Shown here: piece after piece, positions 5,456 through 11,649 of the stretch
How positions within the stretch are numbered: position 1 is the first letter of the stretch
Layout of the letters: each line of letters starts with the position of its first letter
Source of the DNA: Candidatus Woesearchaeota archaeon
Lineage (GTDB): Archaea > Nanobdellota > Nanobdellia > Woesearchaeales > GW2011-AR15
DNA: 11,649 nt
Assembly (NCBI GenBank): GCA_023701075.1
Contig: JAMPXQ010000028.1
Span: forward strand, 1 to 11,649
Direction: 5' to 3'
The notes under the pieces: generated by a model
Database searches by the model: none
Told to the model about the DNA's origin: nothing
Seen by the model: the letters and a program-made list of their open reading frames with translations, nothing else
Position numbers and translations under genes: made by a program

Positions 5456-8400
5456 TCAGGTGAAATCCACCTGGTATTCATTGCATACCAATAGATCGTC
5501 TTCATCTAGGGCCCTATCCCCATTCATATCATAGACCCCTAAATCAACATTATTTGTAGAGCCTAGCTTATTTGAGAGGATTGTCAGATCTATGTCATTT
5601 ACTCTTCCGTCCTTATTGAAGTCACAGACCTGCCTGAATGGCCACTTCTCTATGCATGCTGAGTTTTCCATAGTCAATTTAACACAGAATATCTCAGTAT
5701 ACTCTGGTATGCCGCACTGCGGCCTCATCCAATATAAGTTATTGCAATGCATCTCAGGAACGATTGTGCATGAGTCAAAGAACATCGTCTCGACATCATC
5801 ATATTCGACATTCTCATATATCTTTGATGCGACTGTGTCACATGTGAAAGTACCGTCGTTGTTCTCTTCTACCCTATAGACATCCATCCTATTGCCACCA
5901 CCATGATGGTATCCTACGATGACATTGCCATACAAATCAACTGACATGCCTTCTGCACTCCTAATCCCTGTGCATACATCTTTTAGCTCAGACTTCTCAG
6001 GATCGTATCTTAATATCTTCCCATTCGGTGCTGAATCTGAATTAGACTGATATAAGATATATAGGTAATCACCATCCTTATCCCAGAACATGTCTTCAGG
6101 CGGCCTTCCAAGGAAATCCTTTGTAACCTTGATTGTCGACCTACAGACTCCATTATCCGGAGTTAGTGAAACTACCCTAAGACCTGTATTTTCACCTGAT
6201 GCCCATAATTCATTTGTCTTTGGATTGAAATAAGCTGCCTGGAATTCCATGTTATTCTCAATATCTAATCTACAGATGCTTCCTGTATCCCTGTTTGGAA
6301 TCCCTGTTGTCCTATCAAGAACCAATAATTTCTTCTTGTCCTGTGACTCACCTTGATCTCCAGTGAACCCATAGACAACCCCTGTACCTGGATGCTTCGC
6401 TATGGCTTCTATGTCATAATCATCTTTCCGATTAATCTGAACAGGTGAAGGCTCATCGCCTAAGACATTCAACTTGAAGAAGATGCTGTCCTTCCCTCCC
6501 TGATCCTGGATACCATACATTATGCATTCAGGCTCTTCATCATTCTGACATGACTCGTCCTCTTCATCGTCTGTCACATTTATAGTATAATATTCACTCC
6601 TGTCAGCATTCAATGATGAAATCACCACTCCTTCATCCGGAGAAGGCGATGTATATCTCTCATCAAGATAAACCCTATCAGATGAATTTATCCTCATATG
6701 CAGCTCATGATCATTTGGATAGCCTTCTGCATAGAATGAGTATTTATCTAAAACCATATAATCATCTATTCCTGCTGTCAGATAATCTGTATATACCTTT
6801 CCGCCATCTAAAAATTCCAGAGTATCTAAATCATATACCTGTGCTGATGACTTTTGAGCAAGATATGCCTGTATAGCTCTTGCAGGAGAATTTGAACTGA
6901 CTTCAACAAGTATGTCTTCATCTGACTCTGGCAAGGCCACTGATAATATATTCACTTCTGCCTGGCCAGACAATTCTTTGACCACTGCAGGCTGTGCCAA
7001 GACTCCATCCAGCCTCAACTCAAACTCATCCAGCATATCCTTCCTAACAAATATCAGCAGCTGGTCCCATTCCCTCTCAGAATCAATCCTAAACTTCATA
7101 TCTGCAGATGTGAACTGATCTGAATACAAGTAAAGGTCTCCGGAACCTGTGCATGTCTGGATCATGTAACTGGCTGAAGTCACTAAACAATCATTGCTGC
7201 ATTGATCATCATCGATCTCGTTTCCATCATCGCACTCTTCCCCTTCATCCAATACACCGTCTCCGCAATAAGGATGAGGGCAATCAAGATAGACCCAATA
7301 GACTTCATCTTCTGTATCAATTGAAAGGTTATAATATCCTTCTTCTTCTATCTCATAATCATCCAGAACTGCACCCTGCGTACCTTGCGGCCTAGGTGAA
7401 TCATAATTCTGCAGATGGTTCAATCCTTCAATCGCTACCTGAAGTTCCCTATCATCTTCTTCTTCATCTATACCTTTTGAATATTTGTCAAAGAAAAGAT
7501 AATCATATCCTCCAGATTCAAGATAAAGCTTGTTTTCTTCATCTGAATCATATATCAGCCTGAAGTTCCCGACATCATATACTGGTGAATCCTCATCTTG
7601 AATTATATATCCCTGGATAGCCATAGCACCAAGATTTGACTCTGCATCTATCTCTACAAAATCTCCCGGCACTGTCTCAACCTTATAGACTGTGACTCTG
7701 AATGGATCAACTTCATCAGACAATATGACAACAGGTGTGACTTCCTCATCGTTCAAGTATACCTTCAGTGATGTGAGATAATTCCCACCTCTTCTAGTGA
7801 AGATGAGCAACTGATCCTTTGACGTCACAAAAGAAGTATCCGGATTTTGGAATTGGTCATTCTGATACAACAATAATTCACCTTCTCCAAGGCAAGTATC
7901 TAATTCCAGCTTCATTAATTCCGGTGCAGTACAATCCCTTCGGCATCCTTCTTCATATCCGCCATCCTCACATGTCTGCTCTGTACATGCGTAATCACAC
8001 TCTTCCAATTCTTCCTGCCATACACCATCTCCGCAAGTCGTGCATGCATATTCACTTTCTGGAGAACGGCAATCCACTGCACCGCCAGACGGCGGCTTTC
8101 CTTCATCGGTTGTCCTGCATAATTCCCCCAAGGAATCAAATTCGCATGTCTCTGACTCAAGATTACATATGCCATCTCCGCATACCGGAAGGAGCTCCTG
8201 GCAACAGAAACCAAATTCGATAGAATTCCCGCATGCGCATTTACCATCGCAAGAAGGGCCTGGATCACAGCCATCTGGACAATTATCTCCTCCATAATTC
8301 CCATCCTTATATGTAGGAACACCGTTGCAGTCCTGTCTTCCGACATCTGCACATGTTGGAAGCGGAGAATTATCTTCGCACCTTCCAGGAGCATCGCAGT

Positions 8401-8686
8401 CATCTACATCTGCACATCTGCATTCTGAGCACCAATACCTATTACCGCTAGAACCATGCCTGATATCTTCGCATCCTGCATAATTTGAGGCTGCTTCACA
8501 AAAATGGCCATTTTGAAAACACCATTTGTTTGTAGTAGTTATATTCCAAAAATCATTTGGCAATGTATCCGGATCCGGACAATAATAATCGCACCTTGAG
8601 TCATAACCTGGAGGAGGTGTCTGTGAAAACACAAAACTAACCAGTGAAATCGCTAAAATCAGAAACATCATTTTTTTCATTTTCAT
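5456..8686 (-). CDS. Large secreted cysteine-rich mosaic protein with duplicated domain, propeller-like region and dockerin-like tail
   Basis: A 1076-residue exported protein. A signal peptide (about 1-22, MKMKKMMFLILAISLVSFVF) is followed by a cysteine-rich region (about 25-257) with 31 cysteines and two CGDG units at 169 and 218. An unrecognised beta-rich domain follows (about 263-463), then a textbook DUF4215/Myxococcus-type repeat CGDGVLDEGEECDDGN at 474, then a second copy of the beta-rich domain (about 509-709). Residues about 732-972 look like a beta-propeller (repeated E-x-x-x-D-x-x-G blades such as PPEDMFWDKDGDYLYI). The end (about 1020-1068) is dockerin-like, with two calcium loops (DFNKDGRVNDID and DMNGDRALDEDD). 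The whole protein is strongly acidic. The start is the ATG at 8686, which forms an ATGA overlap with the stop of the upstream gene; a GTG at 8695 is less likely. It is the last gene of the operon. Function is unknown; surface attachment is a guess. Confidence 0.85.
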   Translation of the reverse strand: MKMKKMMFLILAISLVSFVFSQTPPPGYDSRCDYYCPDPDTLPNDFWNITTTNKWCFQNGHFCEAASNYAGCEDIRHGSSGNRYWCSECRCADVDDCDAPGRCEDNSPLPTCADVGRQDCNGVPTYKDGNYGGDNCPDGCDPGPSCDGKCACGNSIEFGFCCQELLPVCGDGICNLESETCEFDSLGELCRTTDEGKPPSGGAVDCRSPESEYACTTCGDGVWQEELEECDYACTEQTCEDGGYEEGCRRDCTAPELMKLELDTCLGEGELLLYQNDQFQNPDTSFVTSKDQLLIFTRRGGNYLTSLKVYLNDEEVTPVVILSDEVDPFRVTVYKVETVPGDFVEIDAESNLGAMAIQGYIIQDEDSPVYDVGNFRLIYDSDEENKLYLESGGYDYLFFDKYSKGIDEEEDDRELQVAIEGLNHLQNYDSPRPQGTQGAVLDDYEIEEEGYYNLSIDTEDEVYWVYLDCPHPYCGDGVLDEGEECDDGNEIDDDQCSNDCLVTSASYMIQTCTGSGDLYLYSDQFTSADMKFRIDSEREWDQLLIFVRKDMLDEFELRLDGVLAQPAVVKELSGQAEVNILSVALPESDEDILVEVSSNSPARAIQAYLAQKSSAQVYDLDTLEFLDGGKVYTDYLTAGIDDYMVLDKYSFYAEGYPNDHELHMRINSSDRVYLDERYTSPSPDEGVVISSLNADRSEYYTINVTDDEEDESCQNDEEPECIMYGIQDQGGKDSIFFKLNVLGDEPSPVQINRKDDYDIEAIAKHPGTGVVYGFTGDQGESQDKKKLLVLDRTTGIPNRDTGSICRLDIENNMEFQAAYFNPKTNELWASGENTGLRVVSLTPDNGVCRSTIKVTKDFLGRPPEDMFWDKDGDYLYILYQSNSDSAPNGKILRYDPEKSELKDVCTGIRSAEGMSVDLYGNVIVGYHHGGGNRMDVYRVEENNDGTFTCDTVASKIYENVEYDDVETMFFDSCTIVPEMHCNNLYWMRPQCGIPEYTEIFCVKLTMENSACIEKWPFRQVCDFNKDGRVNDIDLTILSNKLGSTNNVDLGVYDMNGDRALDEDDLLVCNEYQVDFT
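5483..5629 (-). other. Dockerin-like EF-hand pair at the C-terminus
   Basis: The segment encodes CDFNKDGRVNDIDLTIL and, about 30 residues later, DMNGDRALDEDDLLV. Both follow the D-x-N-x-D calcium loop of type I dockerins with the following acidic position and hydrophobic helix. The second loop lacks the usual glycine after the third aspartate (R instead). No cohesin domain is recognisable in this window. Confidence 0.55.
6560..7162 (-). repeat. Second copy of the internal beta-rich domain
   Basis: About 200 residues starting at IQTCTGSGDLYLY. It matches the first copy (7298-7900) at the opening TCxGxG(E/D)LxLY, at DQLLIFxR, at A-x-AIQ-(A/G)-Y, at PVYD/QVYD and at the FFDKYS/VLDKYS segment, with similar spacing. 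It follows directly after the canonical CGDG repeat. Confidence 0.65.
7187..7267 (-). repeat. Canonical DUF4215/Myxococcus cysteine-rich repeat between the two domain copies
   Basis: The segment encodes CGDGVLDEGEECDDGN followed by DDDQCSNDC, with four cysteines. The C-x10-C-x10-C-x3-C spacing is that of the family. It is the best-preserved such repeat in the window. Confidence 0.8.
7298..7900 (-). repeat. First copy of the internal beta-rich domain
   Basis: About 200 residues starting at LDTCLGEGELLLY and ending near NLSIDTEDEVY. It aligns along its length with the copy at 6560-7162. Alternating hydrophobic residues suggest beta strands. I do not recognise the family. Confidence 0.65.
8683..8686 (-). 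other. ATGA stop-start overlap joining the helical gene to the mosaic cysteine-rich gene
   Basis: Read leftward, the four bases ATGA contain the ATG of the downstream gene (8686-8684) and the TGA of the upstream gene (8685-8683). Such overlaps usually mean coupled translation. An identical junction occurs at 11518-11521. Confidence 0.75.
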
Positions 8687-9840
8687 TTCATCCACGCAAA
8701 GCTATAATCCTTTATCCCTTCTCTTGTGAAAAGATATATGAAATAGGCATTATCCACCATCCCTTTCCTTCCGTCCGGATTAAGCGCACTAAGCCTCTTC
8801 GACAGTATCCCATAATCACCATTGCAGAATTTCCTCTCAGGAATATCCCAATTGTATTTCAGATATGCTCCTAAGACTGCTCTTGCATCTTCTAAGTATG
8901 ATACTTCCCCTGTCTTCTCATTTAGAATCAACAATGCTTCTGCACATGGAAGCAAGTTCATAGGTATAGATCTATCCAAAAGGCCGGTATCCCCAAATTC
9001 TGAACTTAGGTCCAGCTTACCAAAATAAGATGCAACACCATCCAAAACATCTTTTTTGCCTGTAGACTGATATTCCTGAAGCTTGGCTAACTCAACCCAG
9101 CATTGGCCTTCTTTTAGGACTACGCCATCCTTCTCAAGCAATGTTGTTTCCCTCTTGCTCCTTTCCTCTGAAAGCAATAGAAGCGATTTTGCATTCTCAA
9201 ACACTTCAGGTGAATTATCTTTGCTCCTCTCCCCTATCAAGTCTGAAGAGATGAAAGATTCCCTGCTGAGAGTCGCGATTATCATCGCGAAATCCTCAAG
9301 CGGCTCATAGCCTGTTATCAGAGAGCTGCCTACTGAAGTCAGCTTCCTTTTCAAACCTTCCTTATCCATATCATCCAGGATAGGGTATTTTTCAGACAAA
9401 AGATATAACTGATACAATTGGAATGATGTATACAAATCGCCTGAATCCTTGTCCTCTGCTGAAACATCCCAGTTCAATATAAGGCTATCGAGATGCTTCT
9501 GCCTCAAAGTAACATCATACAACCCTGAGTAAGCCAATATAGCCCAATTATTACCTTGCACTTCAGTAGATTCAAGCTTTTGACCATCGCAAATCTCTCT
9601 TGAAAAATAATACGTCTCATCCTTCATAGATGATACGAAAAGGTCTATATTCTCTGAGACTTCTATCCCGGTCATTGCAAGCTTGACTTGACCTTCTTCT
9701 AAGTCACCTACGTCAGCCCATTTATCCGCATCGGAATCTTTACTAATGCTCTCTGAAATCTTGTAAGTGACTATGATAACCAATAGCACTACCAAAAGCA
9801 CAATCAATATCCTTAATCCTAATTTCTTATTATTCGTCAT
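8683..9840 (-). CDS. Membrane-anchored helical protein of unknown function
   Basis: A 385-residue protein. A short basic N-terminus (MTNNKKLGLR) and one hydrophobic helix (about 9-26) suggest a signal anchor, with the remaining 355 or so residues outside the cell. The ectodomain has amphipathic helical pairs such as NNWAILAYSGLY (about 97-108), TSFQLYQLYLLSEKY (about 138-152), LLPCAEALLILNE (about 296-308) and VDNAYFIYLFTRE (about 362-374). This resembles an alpha/alpha toroid (six-hairpin) fold, but no catalytic motif is clear. Four cysteines (C84, C247, C299, C339) could form two disulfides. The ATG at 9840 overlaps the upstream cysteine-rich gene by 11 bases and has a GGTG ribosome-binding site at 9845-9848. 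The stop forms an ATGA overlap with the next gene. Its C-terminus resembles the partial gene at the right edge, so it has at least one paralogue in the operon. Family not recognised. Confidence 0.8.
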   Translation of the reverse strand: MTNNKKLGLRILIVLLVVLLVIIVTYKISESISKDSDADKWADVGDLEEGQVKLAMTGIEVSENIDLFVSSMKDETYYFSREICDGQKLESTEVQGNNWAILAYSGLYDVTLRQKHLDSLILNWDVSAEDKDSGDLYTSFQLYQLYLLSEKYPILDDMDKEGLKRKLTSVGSSLITGYEPLEDFAMIIATLSRESFISSDLIGERSKDNSPEVFENAKSLLLLSEERSKRETTLLEKDGVVLKEGQCWVELAKLQEYQSTGKKDVLDGVASYFGKLDLSSEFGDTGLLDRSIPMNLLPCAEALLILNEKTGEVSYLEDARAVLGAYLKYNWDIPERKFCNGDYGILSKRLSALNPDGRKGMVDNAYFIYLFTREGIKDYSFAWMK

Positions 9841-11521
9841 CCAGCACCAACCTTATTATAGGATCATCATCCTCAAAAGACTTATCCAGTATCATCTGCT
9901 TGAGCTCATCAGGGAGCGAGCATTTCTCAGTCTTCACTTCCCATGAATTGAACGGGCCGCAGACATGCTCCCATGCATCTGTGCCATAATTATACCATTC
10001 AACTACCAGTTCCTGATTATAGTTCCTATATTTTATCTCAAACTGCAGAGCATTCAATTCTTCAGTATCTGGAATCGCATCCTCATCAGACAGGTCGAGA
10101 AGATTATCAAATGTCAGATAGACATATTTTGCAACTACTTGTGTCGATTCGGTGCATTCCAAGAGCTCACTTGTCTTATCTGTACCAGTCGCCTCTGAAG
10201 GAGATGAATCTACTGAAGACACCAGTGCACTTGATAACGTCGGATTTGCCAAAGTGTATGCCCAGAAATAACCCTCATCTACGCCACCGTCACAAACCCA
10301 CTCCCCTTCAATCCTATTCTCTGAACTACATGATGTGTCTGCCGGGTCGTCACAGCATCCTGTTTCTCCATATTTACAGCAATTACAATATGTCCCATCC
10401 TCATTCATATCAATGTTTATCTGCCAAAGTGCAGATTCTGCTGTAGCTGACCAGCATAACTGGCTGAAATAAGATGCATCTGCCACTTTCTGCTCACAGT
10501 GCTTACAGTCCTGACTATTGTCCTGCAGATCACATACCTCTGGTATGCAGGTGCATGCATTATCATAATCTCCAGTTATAAATCCTGGCTGCCTGCATCC
10601 GCCTGGGCATGTATCAGCATAATCTGTCGAACCGAAAGATGAATGCTCCTGATCTTCATAATCCCTTGTGTCATCACAACTCTCGCTGTATGCTATCTGC
10701 AAGATACCGTCTCCGCATGCTGTGCAATCCAATCTGCATCCCGGATAGTAACCTGAATCCTTCCAATCAGCATAATTCTCCCATGTGCATCCCCCAGCTA
10801 TAGGACATGCTACATCAGGGTCACAAAATTCATAGTCAGCCTGGAATACTCCGTCTCCACAAAAAGTGCATGCATCGCTCCCAAAAGCCTTATTCCTGCA
10901 ATTCGTATCAGAACCAAAATCACATGTCTCTTTATCAACCTGGACTATGCTATCTCCGCAAAAAGTACAGCTTGGCCTGCATTGGTTTGCATCCCCATTC
11001 CCTTCATCGACAGTATTACCATCATCACATTTTTCAGGCGCTTGGATCACTGTATCGCCGCAGAAAGTACATGCATTCCTGCATTCTCCGATGCCTATAT
11101 ATCCATCGCTGTTTGTGTCTTCTCCATTATTTGGACCGAGGTCGCATTTCTCGCTTGCCTGCTTTATACTATCCCCACAACAAGTGCAATCATTCCTGCA
11201 AGAATTGCCATCTGCCTGGCATACTGTACCCGTATAGCCTCCGTTGTCCTTATAGATAACCGGATTTGCAGTGTATTCACATGCCTTGTCTGTTGAGGCA
11301 GTCCATTTTCCGTCTCCGCAAATCGGTGGTGGTGGTGGCGGTGGTTCATCGTCGTCGTCATCTCCTCCTCCACCCGGACAATTTGTACAGCAACATGGAC
11401 TACAACTAGGGCTGCAAACAGATGGCGTACATGGCCCATTGCCCCCTCCATAAATTTCTGGAACTATAGATATGAATACAACCACCAATAAGAGAAATAA
11501 GTGTAATCTTGAAGATTTCAT
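9830..11521 (-). CDS. Secreted cysteine-rich protein with six CGD repeats
   Basis: A 563-residue exported protein with 51 cysteines, 48 of them before residue 410. A signal peptide (about 1-24, MKSSRLHLFLLLVVVFISIV) is followed by a short Cys cluster (31-48) and a low-complexity linker of Gly4, Asp5, Glu and Pro7 (50-66). Six repeats then start at C68, C115, C154, C188, C221 and C269, each reading CGD(G/S/T)xxxQ and followed by a CD pair. They belong to the DUF4215/Myxococcus cysteine-rich type, though several are degenerate. Another Cys-rich stretch (320-410) follows, and residues about 430-563 look like an all-beta sandwich (VAKYVYLTFDNL, LQFEIKYRNYN, LVVEWYNYG, IIRLVLDDE). The ATG at 11521 is fixed by an ATGA overlap with the preceding gene and a GGTG site at 11527-11530. 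The gene ends 11 bases inside the next one. No enzyme motif is seen; an extracellular binding or structural role is inferred. Confidence 0.85.
   Translation of the reverse strand: MKSSRLHLFLLLVVVFISIVPEIYGGGNGPCTPSVCSPSCSPCCCTNCPGGGGDDDDDEPPPPPPPICGDGKWTASTDKACEYTANPVIYKDNGGYTGTVCQADGNSCRNDCTCCGDSIKQASEKCDLGPNNGEDTNSDGYIGIGECRNACTFCGDTVIQAPEKCDDGNTVDEGNGDANQCRPSCTFCGDSIVQVDKETCDFGSDTNCRNKAFGSDACTFCGDGVFQADYEFCDPDVACPIAGGCTWENYADWKDSGYYPGCRLDCTACGDGILQIAYSESCDDTRDYEDQEHSSFGSTDYADTCPGGCRQPGFITGDYDNACTCIPEVCDLQDNSQDCKHCEQKVADASYFSQLCWSATAESALWQINIDMNEDGTYCNCCKYGETGCCDDPADTSCSSENRIEGEWVCDGGVDEGYFWAYTLANPTLSSALVSSVDSSPSEATGTDKTSELLECTESTQVVAKYVYLTFDNLLDLSDEDAIPDTEELNALQFEIKYRNYNQELVVEWYNYGTDAWEHVCGPFNSWEVKTEKCSLPDELKQMILDKSFEDDDPIIRLVLDDE
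9845..9848 (-). promoter_or_regulatory. GGTG ribosome-binding site of the 385-residue protein gene
   Basis: Read leftward, GGTG lies four bases before the ATG at 9840, inside the coding end of the upstream gene. It supports this start over later in-frame codons. Confidence 0.4.
10667..11320 (-). repeat. Six tandem CGD cysteine-rich repeats
   Basis: The units are 33-48 residues apart. The shared core is T-x-C-G-D-x-x-x-Q-x-x-x-E-x-C-D, often followed by GGY or SGY and then C-R-x-D-C-T before the next unit. Only the third unit (CGDTVIQAPEKCDDGN) keeps the full CDDGN ending. The same core appears in the mosaic protein encoded at 5456-8686. Confidence 0.75.
11324..11374 (-). repeat. Triplet-rich low-complexity linker (Gly4-Asp5-Glu-Pro7)
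   Basis: Seventeen consecutive codons encode runs of glycine, aspartate and proline. On the DNA these are near-perfect GGT/GGC and GTC/CTC triplet runs. Slippage in triplets would change linker length without breaking the frame. Confidence 0.7.
11518..11521 (-). other. ATGA stop-start overlap joining the edge gene to the six-repeat cysteine-rich gene
   Basis: Read leftward, ATGA contains the ATG of the downstream gene (11521-11519) and the TGA that ends the partial gene (11520-11518). It matches the junction at 8683-8686. Confidence 0.7.
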
Positions 11522-11649
11522 TTTTGCACCATCATTTTTAATTGAGGTCTACTTATCAAATAAATCTGGTAAGCATTATCTGACAAATAGAAAGTATTTT
11601 TGTGATACCCATTCTTTATCGCATAACTTGTTTGCCATATACACTCCTC
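11518..11649 (-). CDS. C-terminal end of a second helical protein, paralogue of the 385-residue protein (partial)
   Basis: Reading leftward from the window edge, one frame is open for 43 codons and ends in TGA at 11520-11518. Near its end it encodes DNAYQIYLISR, against DNAYFIYLFTR at residues 363-373 of the protein encoded at 8683-9840, which is 8 identities in 11. The distance from the preceding cysteine to this motif (21 against 24 residues) and the tail after it (9 against 12 residues) also agree. The stop overlaps the start of the cysteine-rich gene by four bases, just as the full-length paralogue overlaps its own cysteine-rich neighbour. The rest of the gene lies outside the window. It also explains 11522-11649, which otherwise looks like an AT-rich upstream region. 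Confidence 0.65.
   Translation of the reverse strand, partial: EECIWQTSYAIKNGYHKNTFYLSDNAYQIYLISRPQLKMMVQK
11527..11530 (-). promoter_or_regulatory. GGTG ribosome-binding site of the six-repeat cysteine-rich gene
   Basis: Read leftward, GGTG lies five bases before the ATG at 11521 and within the coding end of the upstream partial gene. Confidence 0.45.

Follow-up and report, generated by a model that had tools for sequence, protein, structure and literature searches.

Gene pairs on the minus strand of a Woesearchaeota contig

Here, we analysed a stretch of 11,649 nucleotides from a Candidatus Woesearchaeota archaeon (the window), which is the whole of contig C86 of the genome G000 (1,261,383 bases in 157 contigs, 76% complete). 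Read leftward on the minus strand, it carries a helical gene of which the contig edge leaves just the tail (H1), a gene for a secreted cysteine-rich protein (CysA), a complete gene for a membrane-anchored helical protein (H2) and a second cysteine-rich gene (CysB), as listed in Table 1. This order had been proposed in an earlier inspection of the letters and open reading frames (ORFs) of the window, made without database searches (the sequence-only reading), and it is borne out, together with the overlaps of 4, 11 and 4 bases between successive genes, both helical-to-cysteine-rich junctions being ATGA. The duplicated, coupled pair is therefore a confirmed observation. For CysB, the ORF list gives a GTG start at 8695; several ATGs follow, and it is the ATG at 8686 that creates the ATGA overlap. 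Short overlaps are frequent in these operons (e.g., CysA/524 aa/CysB in the related genome G005), thus overlap alone is not special, while the conserved gene order is. The genomes are fragmentary bins and all results presented here come from sequence. Unless a profile score is given, the assignment of signal peptides and membrane helices, as well as the labels pilin-like and coiled-coil, was made by eye.

The H1 frame ends in ...DNAYQIYLISRPQLKMMVQK-stop, and its TGA shares the ATGA (11521-11518) with the CysA start. The helical profile aligns through its C-terminal end with this fragment (E 3.2e-5, 24.3 bits), and G000 has a full-length helical paralogue on contig C105 whose end, ...DNAYQIYLITRPEVKMVVPK, nearly equals that of H1. 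The edge gene, in which the sequence-only reading had seen a C-terminal motif shared with H2, is thus a true relative. That the edge gene might prove unrelated over its full length was not seen, although H1 is readable only in its C-terminal tail.

The cysteine-rich gene that follows the C105 paralogue starts at -4 bases, and the first 71 residues of its product are 64% identical to CysA. Contigs C105 and C106 share an exact 46-base end overlap, across which the frame of this partner runs on for 1982 residues, in which two LamG stretches and three SLH stretches pass the cut-off. We therefore dropped it as a CysA: its N-terminus is CysA-like, but the whole is a giant protein of another kind. 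The next gene encodes a membrane protein that looks coiled-coil by eye. In total, G000 carries three helical genes, each preceding a cysteine-rich gene.

Table 1. Positions of the genes, domains, residues and overlaps discussed in the text (window coordinates).
Feature	Positions	Strand	Basis
H1, C-terminal tail of helical gene cut by contig edge	11518..11649	-	helical profile match, E 3.2e-5
ATGA overlap, H1 stop / CysA start	11518..11521	-	sequence
CysA, secreted cysteine-rich protein, 563 aa, 51 Cys	9830..11521	-	translation; orthologues in G004, G005, G007, G009
CysA CGD-repeat region, limits by eye	10667..11320	-	DUF4215 14.8, TIGR02232 17.5 bits, both under cut-off
11-base overlap, CysA end / H2 start	9830..9840	-	ORF coordinates and sequence
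H2, membrane-anchored helical protein, 385 aa	8683..9840	-	translation, family alignment
H2 N-terminal hydrophobic stretch, about residues 8-29	9754..9819	-	by eye in translation
H2 Cys84, invariant 12/12	9589..9591	-	family alignment
H2 Cys247, invariant 12/12	9100..9102	-	family alignment
H2 Cys299, invariant 12/12	8944..8946	-	family alignment
H2 Cys339, kept in 11/12	8824..8826	-	family alignment
ATGA overlap, H2 stop / CysB start	8683..8686	-	sequence
CysB, secreted cysteine-rich protein, 1076 aa from ATG	5456..8686	-	ORF and junction analysis
DUF4215 / cysteine-rich acidic repeat in CysB	7187..7285	-	28.6 bits vs 27; TIGR02232 32.4 vs 20.8
Type I dockerin at CysB C-terminus	5486..5623	-	28.9 bits vs 22.9; 34.1 bits in genome scan

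Helical genes directly precede cysteine-rich genes

An order-level search of 352 genomes found the helical (H) family in six genomes, all of one family (f1; 10 genomes, G000-G009), and one weak match to a YyaL-like protein in G321. No full-length H was found outside f1 when we sampled the class (378 genomes) and, with some overlap, the phylum (371 genomes); the matches there were only partial (G031, G175, G285, G321, G409 and G524; E 3.9e-5 to 9.2e-4), and none was found in viral contigs. A large protein search returned five relatives, then six, which come without genomic context and do not enter the junction count below; the named records matching the family are three Woesearchaeota and one Nanoarchaeota metagenome-assembled contigs.

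Nine junctions with a readable 3' end were counted (two on C86, two in G008, and one each on C105 and in G004, G005, G007 and G009). At all nine, in six genomes, the next start lies -4 to +1 bases from the H stop (six at -4, one at -1 and two at +1), and the next gene has a signal-like N-terminus. Eight partners are readable and all are cysteine-rich (4.7-9.9% Cys), while the contig that holds the ninth, in G008, stops after 25 of its residues. The values for the C105 and G007 partners (6.0% each) use continuation contigs, the G007 fragment alone having 4.0%; the two G007 contigs overlap by 143 bases with one mismatch. The sequence-only reading had asked whether H always sits directly before a CGD-repeat gene. 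Direct adjacency held at every junction and each readable partner is cysteine-rich, but CGD repeats are not universal. A distribution of H homologues mostly away from CGD-repeat genes was not seen among these nine junctions, the database relatives P0001-P0005 lying outside the count. The suggestion of the sequence-only reading that each anchored protein works with, folds or displays its own cysteine-rich partner is supported in part, through this conserved adjacency.

It could be argued that there is no special pairing, and that H and the cysteine-rich proteins are separate subunits of a compact surface operon, co-inherited in a small lineage. Similar overlaps do join other operon genes, the family is small, and the nine junctions are related by descent and not independent. 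In a control set of 215 ORFs of at least 200 aa in the fetched loci the median was 1.08% Cys, with 38 at 4.5% or more; since these loci were chosen around such genes, cysteine-rich neighbours are common there. However, the location of the pair varies: it adjoins pilins in three genomes and a tRNA synthetase-like gene in G000 and G005. G000 has three copies, and there are two helical groups, which tend to be followed by two classes of partner. We detected the CysA C-terminal domain in five of the ten family genomes, every one of them being among the six with helical genes, an arrangement given by 6 of 252 random draws, the genomes being related and incomplete. We regard simple co-inheritance as unlikely and a functional pairing of H with its cysteine-rich partner as probable.

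Conserved cysteines and the likely fold of H

Twelve helical sequences were aligned, leaving out P0005 (shorter) and P0006 (the C105 protein again); their identity to H2 is 19-92%. A hydrophobic N-terminal stretch was seen by eye in every one except P0002, whose N-terminal part is missing. Four cysteines are invariant or nearly so (Table 1): the G004 protein has lost C339 and has an extra cysteine five alignment columns before C84. We infer that the disulfides would be C84-C339 and C247-C299. In the tree of the 12 sequences, the C105, G009, G007 and G005 proteins form a clade with support of 1.000, and G004 and the second G008 gene branch between this clade and the H2 group.

Four near-invariant cysteines in an extracytoplasmic protein that is encoded before cysteine-rich proteins might also mark a folding factor with thiol activity (an oxidase, isomerase or thiol carrier) that serves its own partner. 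However, no CXXC or thioredoxin-like motif was seen in H, and the loss of C339 with gain of a cysteine near C84 in G004 is better explained by structural disulfides. Such a thiol activity seems to us improbable.

No Pfam or NCBIfam family passed the cut-off for H2. Among 10 members of the family, Pfam gave weak matches to GH127 (3.2e-5, in one) and GlcNAc 2-epimerase (0.0013, in two), solved structures of GH76 and GlcNAc 2-epimerase match the H profile at E 0.5-1.3, and H residues 62-128 match a YyaL-like protein. Together, these weak matches suggest an alpha/alpha toroid. With a larger alignment, the best solved-structure matches are designed helical repeat proteins (0.002 and 0.0076), thus the fold of H is not settled. 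The H profile was also compared with 165 ORFs of the fetched loci, eight of which are the H family itself. First among the 157 others was a cysteine-rich protein matched only at its N-terminal membrane-helix region (49.6), followed by two alpha/alpha-toroid-looking proteins (45.6 and 36.9); the ranking is biased, as the toroid-like ORFs had been fetched because they matched the helical profile.

The same weak matches would fit an active alpha/alpha-barrel glycosidase or epimerase, trimming the glycans of its partner or of an adjacent cell. However, the conserved catalytic acids of such enzymes were not found in H. E301 is the sole acidic residue among the invariant columns of 10 sequences, and is only nearly invariant among 12, which speaks against a glycosidase. 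Moreover, since designed helical repeats match best, helicity alone may explain the matches. An enzymatic role of this kind is thus unlikely.

Properties of the cysteine-rich partners

The CGD-repeat part of CysA matches that of CysB (E 1.2e-7). The CGD repeats that the sequence-only reading had ascribed to the cysteine-rich proteins are therefore shared by these two, but not by all partners: the C105/C106 protein is mainly LamG and SLH, with one CGD motif counted by eye. CysB resembles the cysteine-rich acidic repeat proteins (DUF4215/TIGR02232) in passing both curated cut-offs, whereas CysA stays below both (14.8 vs 27 and 17.5 vs 20.8 bits). CysA orthologues follow the helical genes of G004, G005, G007 and G009, and CysB resembles the partner of the H2-like gene in G008 (E 4.9e-31). 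A G008 match considered as a CysA orthologue proved to continue this CysB-type partner, across an end overlap of 61 bases, and is no longer counted as a CysA. Upstream of the same H2-like gene, L023:1-840 (+) encodes a protein with an intramolecular chaperone domain (Peptidase_S74, 54.7 bits vs 22) at its end.

CysB ends in a type I dockerin (Table 1). A dockerin judged by eye at the end of the G009 CysB was not supported by the scan (EF-hand at 0.078 only), and a regular expression for dockerin loops was discarded, as it missed dockerins supported by Pfam.

The G009 partner of 1311 aa (L020:5504-9439, -) has four Hint (intein-like) modules in tandem, which lie between an N-terminal cysteine cluster and the CGD repeats and each of which ends in VHNK or a similar sequence. 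AXH was the highest-scoring Pfam family on these stretches and was taken as a cross-match. Hint was also found in the G007 partner, which makes two partners in all, and in none of the other readable partners scanned. As Hint is common in polymorphic toxins, these two proteins could point to a toxin-like secreted protein with an anchored protector. However, CGD repeats and a conserved C-terminal domain follow the Hint repeats, no Pfam toxin family was found, and the module is confined to these two among the partners scanned. A toxin system is, in our view, very improbable.

Pilin-like neighbours, cohesin and dockerin

In G009, G004 and on C105 of G000, the helical gene follows pilin-like genes, recognised by eye, and the last of these before the pair carries a cohesin or cohesin-like domain. 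Cohesin and dockerin are an established binding pair. The cohesin of the last pilin passes the cut-off of 24.1 bits in G000 C105 (42.7), G002 (41.7), G005 (33.6) and G004 (26.3); that of G001 scores 23.0 as a protein, under the cut-off, and 26.0 in the genome scan, over it. The genome scan found cohesin over cut-off in four of the ten genomes, each time only at this last-pilin gene, and dockerin in five (G000, G002, G003, G005 and G007), so that both are present in G000, G002 and G005. The G007 dockerin lies outside the pilin operon, at the C-terminus of a secreted 574-aa protein (L117:634-2358, -), and the CysB of the window and the cohesin pilin of its genome sit on separate contigs of one bin.

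The genomes G001, G002 and G003, which have no helical genes, show pilin-like genes and then cysteine-rich giants of 1447-1817 aa, with a 503-aa gene in between in G003. The last pilin of G001 (L088:6085-8265, +) has its cohesin-like domain fused to five cysteine-rich acidic repeats (93 bits) and LamG. The long pilin also occurs outside f1, in G055 (cohesin at 18.2 bits, under the cut-off) and in G247 and G264 (no cohesin). In G247, it adjoins a T2SSE ATPase (124.6 bits) and two T2SSF proteins (49.6 and 37.8), which ties this type of long pilin to pilus machinery; no secretion ATPase or T2SSF was seen in the stretches of f1 itself, whose genomes were not searched for them. The pilin-like proteins show QVSFEF-type motifs by eye. 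Against solved structures, the pilin profile reached scaffoldin C at 0.098, behind G-protein alpha chains (0.017 and 0.04), and a single pilin sequence matched no cohesin.

Several results, beside the many cysteine-rich ORFs of the control set, weigh against a pilus on which the partners dock. The pairs of the window and of G005 are not near pilins but adjoin a tRNA synthetase-like gene. The pilin cohesins of G003 and G009 are under the cut-off (17.7 and 19.3), the genome scan missed that of G004, and G006, G007 and G008, of which two carry helical genes, showed no long cohesin pilin. In G004 and G009, the genome scan gave no dockerin at E<=0.01 though the pilin is present, and the giant protein beside the G000 pilin has a dockerin of 18 bits only, under the cut-off, with none in the protein scan. 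Finally, the class III signal peptide (PF04021) is under its cut-off of 23.7 throughout (19.1, 20.4, 16.1 and 15.8). Taken together, we lean towards the view that the pair belongs to a pilus-like apparatus. Docking of CysB-type adhesins on the pilin through cohesin and dockerin falls slightly short of even odds in our estimate, which was lowered because the dockerin-less and pilin-less genomes were counted.

Other genes in the vicinity

On C105 (L024:1502-3790, +), two lipoprotein-like helical genes of opposite strand lie between the pilin-like genes and the helical gene. They match no Pfam family at E<=0.01, and no link of this lipoprotein-like neighbour to H was found (profile comparison probability 0.1%). 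The G005 cohesin pilin and an 877-aa cysteine-rich protein (L091:5583-8216, -) have directly between them a 191-aa protein (L091:8217-8792, -) with an N-terminal hydrophobic stretch, which differs from H and occupies the place held elsewhere by the helical gene. The pilin-adhesin operon of G009 ends with a 2227-aa protein with 201 Cys, subtilase and VWA (L049:3377-10060, -).

In the window, the genes 3' of CysB encode a glycyl-tRNA synthetase-like protein (named by eye, with a Pfam anticodon-binding domain above its cut-off and the class II core slightly below), an alpha-amylase and a radical SAM-like protein (1199-2287, -) that has a helix-hairpin-helix end. The last of these also follows the tRNA synthetase-like gene in G005, thus the region is syntenic with the window. 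Near the left end, on the opposite strand, lies a PALP-family enzyme that looks cysteine synthase-like by eye (316-1185, +).

A possible pilus-like surface apparatus

The reading that we prefer, with a probability of roughly 40%, is that both pairs form part of a surface apparatus resembling a type IV pilus, as modules in which each adhesin is made with its own anchored H, and that adhesins of the CysB type dock on a pilin. CysA and CysB would be secreted, disulfide-rich adhesins. A single N-terminal helix would anchor H1 and H2 in the cell membrane, and a helical, disulfide-stabilised domain, probably an alpha/alpha toroid, would lie outside it. There, they may receive the adhesin during export and hold it at the membrane while its disulfides form; we consider this loader role somewhat less likely than not. 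Adhesins with a dockerin (CysB type) would next bind the cohesin on the last of the pilin-like proteins and be carried outward, and CysA, which lacks a dockerin, may stay on H1 or attach through its C-terminal domain.

The pilin-like context, the cohesin on the last pilin, the dockerin on CysB and the Hint modules in two partners are new here and were absent from the sequence-only reading. Of known systems, archaeal type IV pili (Makarova et al. 2016, PMC4858521) are similar in having pilin-like genes in a row and large secreted cysteine-containing proteins; the part of that work consulted notes conserved cysteines in several pilus components and predicts adhesins in pilus loci. In contrast, a cohesin on the last pilin and an anchored helical protein before the cysteine-rich one are not described in that part. 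A survey of ANME archaea (PMC9012536) covers non-cellulosomal cohesin-dockerin proteins, where, in the portion consulted, both domains likewise occur in secreted proteins thought to link surface proteins; however, the cohesins there are in scaffoldin-like proteins, while here there is one per genome, in a pilin-like protein. Among the titles and abstracts of open-licence papers that our searches returned, none describes an archaeal pilin that bears a cohesin. Bacterial minor pilins with the tip adhesin PilY1, which are mentioned in PMC4858521, also have a pilin operon followed by a large secreted adhesin candidate, but the partner scans gave no DUF2341/PilY and instead CGD, Hint, LamG, SLH and dockerin.

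The recognition and holding of other cells by DPANN archaea such as Woesearchaeota is largely open, as is also said in the abstract of PMC11329633. The pairs studied here are probably part of a filament on the cell surface, by which the archaeon would attach to other cells or to surfaces. A far bolder picture, which we consider rather improbable, is that of pilus-borne docking in ultra-small archaea, where a cohesin pilin would receive dockerin adhesins, the H proteins, as a new family, would act as matched loaders made just ahead of their adhesins, some adhesins with up to four Hint domains in tandem would mature by themselves, and a single filament could thus present exchangeable tips with which to hold the host cell. 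As H2 matches no Pfam or NCBIfam family over cut-off, one structure would place a new extracytoplasmic partner protein, and the helical-cysteine pair can be a marker for finding such adhesins. If the proposal is true, the cohesin on the pilin and the dockerins on secreted cysteine-rich proteins would constitute a concrete, testable attachment mechanism.

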